From: Rodentibacter genomosp. 1
GTDB lineage: Bacteria > Pseudomonadota > Gammaproteobacteria > Enterobacterales > Pasteurellaceae
Length of the DNA: 64,000 nt
Direction of reading: 5' to 3'
NCBI RefSeq assembly: GCF_001999285.1
Contig: NZ_MLHN01000007.1
Location: forward strand, 62,001-126,000
The notes below the pieces were generated by a model. That model made no database searches. It saw nothing but the letters and a program-made list of their open reading frames with translations, and was not told where the DNA came from. A program made the position numbers and the translations under genes. Shown here one piece after another: positions 32,717 through 60,969 of this stretch; the first letter of the stretch is position 1; each line of letters opens with the position of its first letter.

Positions 32717-32826
32717 AAAAGTGCGGTCACAAAAAACAACGTTTTTTGAACGTTGGCTTTGCCAACGACCCCGAAAGGAGTACACAAACGAGTAAGCGAG
32801 TTTGTGAATAATTTTGACCGCACTTT
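32717..32826. repeat. USS-bounded repeat (91-bp family), intergenic copy
   Basis: Inverted USS cores at both ends (AAAAGTGCGGTC from 32717; GACCGCACTTT ending 32826). Bases 32717-32807 align without gaps to the complement of 60200-60290. It contains two small hairpins (CGTTGGCTTTGCCAACG and ACAAAC...GTTTGT). It follows the TonB receptor gene and may serve as its terminator. Confidence 0.85.
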
Positions 32827-58968: not shown

Positions 58969-60120
58969 ATGAACAATCTCAATCGTCGTCAATTTCTCAC
59001 ACAAAGTGTGGTCGTTTTGGCAGGGGGATTTTTACCGCATATCAGCACCGCACAACCGATTGTCCAATCAAGTCAAAACAAGAAAAAAGGTCATAAAATG
59101 AAACTGATTTGTGTCGAAGAACATATTTTAGATCCCAATATCGCCAAAGCGACAATGCCACAAGTGCTTCAGCAAGCACCTTATCTTACTAATTGGGGAA
59201 AACGGGTGAAAGATGGCAATCATACCGATCACAGCCGTCCTCAAATCGAAAAAAATGACTTAATTACCCCAAAAGGTATGGAATTTGATGTCAAACGTCT
59301 AGCAGACATGGATGCTGCAAACATTGATATGCAGGTACTTTCTGTGGGTGGTTTTCCACAATTTGCTTCTCTTGAATTACACAAACAGGCGAATGATAAA
59401 CTGGCAGCCGCCATCAAAAAACATCCTAACCGTTTTGCTGCTATGGCGACCTTACCTTGGATGGAACCAGAGCAAGCAGTGACAGAATTAGAACGTACGG
59501 TAAAAGAATTGGGTTTGCGTGGCGCCTTGTTGAATGGTCGCCCATCGGACGATTTTCTCGCCCCCCCACGTTATGAAAGGTTGTTGGTGAAATTCAATGA
59601 ACTGAATGTGCCACTTTATCTTCACCCCGGTATTCCTGTGCCTACCGTACAACAAGCCTATTACAGCGGTTTTGATGATGAAGTGACCGCCCGCCTTTCT
59701 ATGTTCGGTTGGGGTTGGCACAATGAAGCAGGGCTCCATTTATTGCGATTAATGTTATCCGGTGCATTTGATCGCTATCCGAATTTACAAGTGATTAGCG
59801 GACATTGGGGTGAAATGTTGCCATTCTATCTCCAACGTTTAGACGACAGCCTGCCACAAGCTGCTACCGGTTTAAAACGTAGCTTGACCGACACCTTCAA
59901 ACAACAAGTTTTCGTTAGCCCTAGTGGTATGCTGACTCAACCGCACTTTCAGTTTATCTATAATTTAATCGGGGCGGAACGTATCTTATTCTCGGTAGAT
60001 TATCCTTATCAGACTCTTAACGGTGTACGTAATTTCCTCGAAAACTTACCCATTTCAGAGGCTGAAAAAGAATTGATTGCCTATAAAAATGCAGAGAAAT
60101 TGTTTAGGATCAAGACGTAA
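58969..60120 (+). CDS. Tat-exported amidohydrolase-family enzyme
   Basis: A 383-residue protein: a twin-arginine signal (MNNLNRRQFLTQS, hydrophobic core, cleavage near STAQP) followed by an amidohydrolase_2 TIM barrel. Metal/active-site-like positions include CVEEHI near residue 48, LYLHPGIP (~222), SGHWGE (~283) and FSVDYPYQ (~345). Family members include aromatic decarboxylases. An internal ATG at 59098 (MKLICVEEH) has AAAGG at ideal spacing, whereas the ATG at 58969 has no clear ribosome site, so a cytoplasmic form is also possible. An ABM-domain gene follows. Confidence 0.82.
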   Translation: MNNLNRRQFLTQSVVVLAGGFLPHISTAQPIVQSSQNKKKGHKMKLICVEEHILDPNIAKATMPQVLQQAPYLTNWGKRVKDGNHTDHSRPQIEKNDLITPKGMEFDVKRLADMDAANIDMQVLSVGGFPQFASLELHKQANDKLAAAIKKHPNRFAAMATLPWMEPEQAVTELERTVKELGLRGALLNGRPSDDFLAPPRYERLLVKFNELNVPLYLHPGIPVPTVQQAYYSGFDDEVTARLSMFGWGWHNEAGLHLLRLMLSGAFDRYPNLQVISGHWGEMLPFYLQRLDDSLPQAATGLKRSLTDTFKQQVFVSPSGMLTQPHFQFIYNLIGAERILFSVDYPYQTLNGVRNFLENLPISEAEKELIAYKNAEKLFRIKT

Positions 60121-60186
60121 CCGTTCAACTTGTCAGATAACCATGAGTAATAAATTACCCATGGATCATCATATAAGGAAAAAACA

Positions 60187-60969
60187 ATGAAAAAACTACT
60201 CACAAACTCGCTTACTCATTTGTTCCCCCCTATTGGGGCAGTGAGTAAAACCACCATTCAAAAAACGTTGTTTTTTATGACCGCACTTTTAGGACTTACT
60301 ATGGCTATCACCGCAAACGCCACCCCGATGATAAACATTTTTGAACTCGGCGTGAAAAAAGGGGCTGAAGTGCAATATCACGCCGTGGCTGAACACAATA
60401 TCAGCACATCAATCCGCAATGAAAAAGGCACATTGGCAATGTATTCGGTGAAATCAAACACCGATCCCAATATAGCCTATATGGTGGAAATTTATGCGGA
60501 TCAAAAGGCTTATGAAACCCACCGCACGTCACCTCAATATCAAGCATTTTTAACTGCATCACCTGAGATTTTAACGGATCACAAAAAGCGTATTGCCTTA
60601 GTTCCACAATTTTTAGGGGATAAAAAAGTGGTACAAACGCCCGAAATCCTCACAAATTATGTAGTGGTAGAAGTGAAACCTGAATATAACGAACAATTCA
60701 AGAAGATTATTATCGCAGAAATGGCACAATCGCTAAAAGTAGAAGAGGGGATGATTGCGACGTATGCCACCACAATGCAAGAAAATCCAAACAAATGGAT
60801 TTTCTTTGAGATCTACGCCAACAGTGCTGCTTACCAACATCACAGAGAAACACCTCATTTTAAAGATTACCTAAAACAAACGGGTGAGATGCTGAAAGAA
60901 AAAAGTTATGTGGGAATTCATCCTGAGTTTTTGGCGAATCAAGGAAATTTTTATTTTAATCAACCTTAG
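60187..60969 (+). CDS. Exported protein with two ABM (monooxygenase-like) domains
   Basis: A 260-residue protein with two tandem antibiotic-biosynthesis-monooxygenase-type domains (~50-135 and ~155-240), each with the Y-x-x-x-x-x-T/S-x-x-Y/F signature as in YETHRTSPQYQAFL and YQHHRETPHFKDYL. A hydrophobic export signal TALLGLTMAITANA precedes them. Residues ~5-35 are encoded by a copy of the 91-bp repeat also found at 32717, so the original start may have been nearer the hydrophobic core, for example the ATG at 60277. It lies 66 bases downstream of the amidohydrolase gene. Such domains often handle quinones or haem-like molecules; the substrate here is unknown. Confidence 0.78.
   Translation: MKKLLTNSLTHLFPPIGAVSKTTIQKTLFFMTALLGLTMAITANATPMINIFELGVKKGAEVQYHAVAEHNISTSIRNEKGTLAMYSVKSNTDPNIAYMVEIYADQKAYETHRTSPQYQAFLTASPEILTDHKKRIALVPQFLGDKKVVQTPEILTNYVVVEVKPEYNEQFKKIIIAEMAQSLKVEEGMIATYATTMQENPNKWIFFEIYANSAAYQHHRETPHFKDYLKQTGEMLKEKSYVGIHPEFLANQGNFYFNQP
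60200..60290 (-). repeat. 91-bp USS-linked repeat inside the ABM gene
   Basis: The complement of this segment aligns without gaps over 91 bases to 32717-32807. The first 34 bases differ at one position (AAAAGTGCGGTCA, then AAAAAACAACGTTTTTTGAA) and the last 17 (AGTAAGCGAGTTTGTGA) are identical, while the centre diverges. One end holds a USS core. Confidence 0.88.

Follow-up and report, generated by a model that had tools for sequence, protein, structure and literature searches.

An 81-bp repeat within the signal-peptide codons of a Rodentibacter ABM-domain gene points to insertion at an existing DNA uptake sequence

The window, meaning the whole 64,000-nucleotide stretch analysed here, is part of a 2.35-Mb genome (G000) in or close to the genus Rodentibacter, as judged from named relatives of its ABM gene. 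The window carries a gene coding for an ABM-domain protein (PF03992, E-value 5.8e-29) whose 5' coding part contains, in frame, DNA of a repeat that is also found between two DNA uptake sequences (USSs) in an intergenic region (Table 1). In an ungapped alignment, 60200-60290 and 32717-32807 (reverse complement) agree at 75 of 91 bases; elsewhere in the window, with both strands considered, identity never rises above 48 of 91. The preliminary description was right on the alignment, on the in-frame position of the repeat and in calling it USS-linked; the near-identical ends that it reported take in both parts of an extended USS that has been split and that flanks the 81-bp insert without belonging to it. 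In folding tests the intergenic copy gave stem-loops (z -2.87) and the ABM mRNA stretch 60160-60330 folds no better than its shuffles (z 0.00). A consensus scan of 60050-60350 revealed neither a promoter-like site nor a terminator.

Table 1. Coordinates of the two repeat copies of the window and of the features around them.
Feature	Position	Strand	Evidence or remark
Left USS of inverted pair, AAAAGTGCGGTC, adjoining the intergenic copy	32717..32728	+	
Intergenic repeat copy of 81 bp, flanked by two USSs and following a TonB-dependent receptor gene	32729..32809	+	RF02902, 73.1 bits; bounds from empty sites
AT tract and second USS, AATTTTGACCGCACTT	32810..32825	+	
AAGGA, Shine-Dalgarno-like	60175..60179	+	common to repeat-free orthologues
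RF02902 match of the ABM copy	60186-60286	- (opposite to gene)	55.4 bits; gathering score 39.8
ABM-domain gene, 260 codons, repeat within signal-peptide codons	60187..60969	+	ORF, PF03992, orthologues
Ancestral start ATGAAAAAACT (MKKL), left of the insertion	60187..60197	+	orthologue comparison
Inserted repeat, 81 bp (27 codons)	60198..60278	+	empty-site comparison
USS GACCGCACTT present before the insertion, coding for the beginning (TAL) of the old hydrophobic core	60279..60288	+	present in repeat-free orthologues

Comparison of the ABM gene with its orthologues revealed what the locus looks like without the repeat. Repeat-free orthologues start with ATGAAAAAACT^GACCGCACTT (MKKL^TALLGL), the first of these segments being identical in R. 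rarus (L040), R. myodis (L041) and A. actinomycetemcomitans (L042, L043), and in these nearest repeat-free relatives the uninterrupted reading is ATGAAAAAACTGACCGCACTTTTAGGA, or MKKLTALLG. The window gene agrees with them in its start, in the AAGGA ahead of it and in the USS, and 81 bp separate ATGAAAAAACT from GACC. Its signal peptide, MKKLTALLGLTMAIT.NA, is interrupted after codon 4 and retains its core and its end, while the insert lengthens the charged n-region and places LFFM ahead of the old hydrophobic core. Because start, AAGGA and USS are all shared with the repeat-free orthologues, 60187 can be regarded as the old start and the repeat as having split an existing signal peptide. Nine of the ten named relatives fetched lack the insert and its N-terminal residues, an outcome that agrees with the preliminary description's own test for repeat DNA in the coding part; the tenth, R. 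mrazii (apparently the same as G003), is the nearest of them (95% over the protein) and shares the insertion. In G003 and R. mrazii (L010, L039), a TAA also ends the ABM reading frame prematurely, shortly past the signal peptide. In G010, a copy of a different repeat subfamily, 78 bp or 26 codons long and read in another frame, occupies the same USS of the same gene; it may be a second insertion or an old one overwritten.

A blastn search of the genome of origin retrieved 12 matches, query included, with an E-value of 5.2e-22 for the window pair. Both window copies belong to the Rfam family RF02902 (AaHKsRNA22), and the gathering score was exceeded in all six loci first scanned. The intergenic copy was matched in 15 of 15 genomes of the genus. 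Within the family Pasteurellaceae, 70 of 121 genomes match at E <=0.001 and 59 score above the cut-off, no more than 30 candidates having been scored per genome. At the level of the order, 21 of 197 genomes match and 10 pass the cut-off, one of these (G247) lying outside the family; ten further genomes of the order outside the family match weakly. G247, a 5-Mb genome, has 10 RF02902 matches with 2 above the cut-off, and its repeat may be either a relative or a look-alike. Out of 159 unique copies, 22 were dropped as not full length, and the 137 full copies represent 90 site clusters. At one site, with six copies (L004, L206, L209, L218, L221, L232), the repeat adjoins the start codon of a putative response regulator gene (named by sight) and therefore forms its 5' leader.

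Filled and empty alleles were observed at several sites. The repeat is present in rbsB of G007 and G008 and absent from 10 other Rodentibacter orthologues, some of which are also without a perfect USS. It is present in lolA of G000, G001, G002, G003, G006 and G008 and absent from eight; lolA of G004 (L145) has a remnant, MKK-TTFFV-TALG, apparently the scar of a partial repeat deletion. An rluA-like gene is filled in G003, G005 and G008 and empty in the ten others compared, and rseB is filled in G006 only among 13 Rodentibacter, several of the others keeping an intact USS. In recD of G137, 78 bp are inserted at an Apl-type USS that lies on the opposite strand, and the site is empty in the four genus mates compared. 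The intergenic site of the window is filled in G000 and G003, holds a diverged copy in G010 and is an intact, empty USS pair in G005, G007, G008 and G011, the other eight genomes differing downstream. Together with ABM, these six sites are those for which filled alleles were compared with empty ones.

In rbsB, lolA, the rluA-like gene, recD and the intergenic site, the junction falls at one point of the USS, GCGGTC^ before the AT tract (GCGGTT^ in rbsB). Its position can be fixed to within about 1 nt at the rluA-like gene and the intergenic site, whose empty and filled pairs show no target-site duplication. The rluA-like inserts of G005 and G003 are identical over 81 columns; the 300 bases to their left are 88% identical between these two genomes, against 94% between G005 and the insert-free G000 and G007. 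Such a pattern would be expected if transformation had carried the filled allele across, or if a second insertion had come from a similar source.

A USS with at least 8 of 9 matching positions adjoins 81 of the 90 full-length site clusters, 63 of Hin type and 18 of Apl type, and the remaining nine adjoin neither. Both dialects are established in Pasteurellaceae, as part of PMC1626085 sets out, and both are used as targets by the repeat. Hin-type USSs are found at 45 of 46 Rodentibacter sites and at 15 of 17 sites of genus g56, Apl-type USSs at 14 of 18 sites of genus g57; the remaining genera contribute few sites. Counts of USSs in the flanks (Hin vs Apl: 170 vs 13 in Rodentibacter, 50 vs 0 in g56, 2 vs 13 in g57) agree with this genus-wise choice.

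Eleven of the 90 site clusters lie in frame in genes with family support, a proportion that is not an unbiased rate because some loci were fetched for their open frames. Seven are N-terminal (RbsB, LolA, an M16 peptidase, a Peripla_BP_2 protein, ABM, Lnt, RseB) and share a single reading frame; four are internal (RluA-like, HypF, FruB, RecD), and in RecD and HypF the insert corresponds to a gap relative to solved structures. Two further N-terminal cases stand beyond the 90, namely a partial copy in ThiB of G013 and the ABM copy of G010. ABM aside, in-frame copies are thus found in eleven kinds of gene. An ORF of 110 aa or more spans the repeat in 16 clusters, five of which were not classed as coding; four of these have an ORF that begins within or beyond the element, and the fifth has a 129-aa ORF with a TTG start. 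The insert measures 81 bp in all eight measurable coding clusters and a multiple of three in 15 of 52 non-coding ones (Fisher p 2e-4); the test has some circularity, an open frame having been the definition of coding. It was run without the copies whose match starts beyond model position 2 and without 29 copies that have no Hin-type anchor, which is why FruB, RecD and Lnt are absent. The inserts of recD and of the G010 ABM gene, of 78 bp (26 codons), are still in frame. As a measure of selection on the lolA insert, pooled pN/pS is 0.49, from six sequences with few changes.

In the window, 31 of 54 USSs lie inside ORFs of at least 120 aa, and 8 of these 31, that of the ABM gene included, are in the first 40 codons, so that USSs may be enriched at gene starts. 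Set against the 11 of 90 repeat sites, the 31 of 54 suggest, as a rough comparison across genomes, that most insertions within genes do not persist, those at N-termini being the least prone to loss.

We consider it probable, at about 0.88, that the 81-bp stretch of the ABM gene is a mobile, hairpin-rich repeat which integrated at a fixed point of a USS and added 27 in-frame codons to an existing signal peptide. The preliminary description had offered two other readings of the same N-terminus, and neither is supported by the comparison with orthologues. One held that the start had been set too far upstream of a true one at 60277; the repeat would then be a 5' untranslated leader. An ATG does stand there (ATG ACC GCA CTT), and many repeat copies have a GTG at the equivalent place, directly before TAL; yet this ATG is preceded by GTTTTTT and nothing resembling a Shine-Dalgarno sequence, a product begun there would be without its positive n-region, the coding copies keep their frame, and it is 60187 with its AAGGA that the repeat-free orthologues share, all of which makes a mis-annotated start very improbable. 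The other held that the repeat became the 5' coding end and supplied the signal peptide. Charged residues and LFFM are indeed brought ahead of the old core, and the same frame recurs at seven N-termini, but a full signal peptide predates the insertion in ABM, lolA and rbsB, and in ABM the repeat-free alleles already read MKKL-TALLGLTMAIT.NA in the same start context. Exaptation in that strong form is refuted, and we hold this reading to be just as improbable as the mis-set start, although the insert may conceivably make a better leader.

What the repeat recognises is a separate matter. If the USS belonged to the element and travelled along with it, with something else as target, nearly every copy would have a USS beside it, as observed, and USS-bearing DNA would spread well by transformation. 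The USS type follows the genus, however, and a USS was already present at the empty ABM, lolA, rbsB, rluA-like, rseB, recD and intergenic sites; a travelling USS is refuted at these seven and scarcely credible elsewhere. A stronger rival is an enzyme that reads a short motif, about GCGGTC plus an AT tract, which is nearly always part of a USS in these genomes; a match to the dialect of each genus would then follow without recognition of the USS as such. GCGGT is present in both USS types, according to part of PMC1626085. All ten GCGGTCAAW sites of the window are USSs (at least 8 of 9 positions), therefore the shorter motif would give the same pattern. GCGGTC alone is insufficient, since only 27 of its 37 window sites are USSs as compared with 45 of 46 Rodentibacter insertion sites (p 9e-6). 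Insertion sites also have the distal AT tract of the USS: left flanks are 88-98% A/T at -20 to -16, vs 79-95% at the corresponding position of 48 window USSs, the profile having been taken from first members of 69 clusters matching from model position 1 and then from the 54 without a left inverted USS. We give this short-motif alternative a little under even odds.

On the favoured reading, the repeat integrated next to GCGGTC, between the core and the first AT tract of an existing extended USS, and left no visible target duplication. In the ABM gene the target USS sat in signal-peptide codons (MKKL-TAL), and for that reason the insertion added 27 codons in frame while keeping the old start codon, the upstream AAGGA, the core and the mature protein. 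Alleles with and without the repeat, the junction, the reading frame and recurrence in other genes were all observed. The element is presumably mobile, the long ABM leader presumably translated and the protein still exported; leaders would tolerate insertions, so that these may be retained at gene-start USSs more often than at internal ones.

A search for a mobilising enzyme, confined to loci of IS200-type (Y1) transposases, found none. Such transposases (PF01797) have matches in 15 of 15 genomes of the genus. As the mover of the repeat they were rejected, no full repeat being present at the 10 best loci (flanks of about 1.5 kb or less), where the best repeat match is 20 bases at the USS end; the IS ends inspected (left of six loci, right of seven) differ from the repeat. 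Two IS200-type elements (L101, L103) start just after inverted USS-pair terminators, a position different from that used by the repeat.

REP elements associated with RAYT or IS200-type (Y1) transposases are hairpins that insert at a fixed short motif without duplication. The repeat described here likewise forms hairpins at a fixed short motif without duplication, but differs from them in the results obtained at the Y1 loci. With MITEs such as the Correia elements it shares small size, hairpins, multiple copies and the lack of any gene inside; unlike them it has no target-site duplication at empty and filled pairs, only a short imperfect match between its ends, and no parent transposon at the Y1 loci examined. 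Its scores place it with RF02902, a family listed as an sRNA gene, whereas here its sequence context gives it the look of an insertion that is scattered through genomes and bordered by the parts of split USSs; another AaHKsRNA family is named in part of PMC9577009. In contrast to the repeat, USSs are described in PMC1626085 as products of substitution rather than of insertion. The closest parallel by description is with the Rickettsia palindromic elements, small palindromic repeats present in many copies and in frame within unrelated protein genes (PMC10969869, in part). The present repeat is also small, palindromic, multi-copy and in frame in unrelated genes (the 11 of 90 and two further cases), but it is about 80 bp long as against about 150 bp, is found in other bacteria, has a fixed insertion point at uptake sequences, and has most of its copies outside genes and most of its in-gene copies at N-termini. 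In-frame palindromic selfish DNA is already known from Rickettsia genes (PMC10969869), and what appears to be new is a repeat integrating at one exact point of the USS and thereby entering signal peptides. Our literature search, with most subscription papers outside it, returned no report of a repeat inserting at USSs.

A broader reading is tentative, and we think it rather unlikely in full: that a mobile element uses the label by which competent cells know their own DNA, in the dialect of its host, as its integration site, so that genes labelled in their signal-peptide codons receive it; and that it can pass between species on transforming DNA and give scattered secreted proteins a common leader complementary to RNA which other copies may express.

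Our findings tie a dispersed repeat to DNA uptake sequences through a single exact insertion point and explain an odd leader in several proteins, including the lipoprotein chaperone LolA. They suggest that a listed sRNA family may also be a mobile repeat, and they are a warning that N-termini in Pasteurellaceae can be repeat-derived. Moreover, signal peptides that occur naturally both with the 27-residue insertion and in its absence make it possible to test how much an export signal tolerates.
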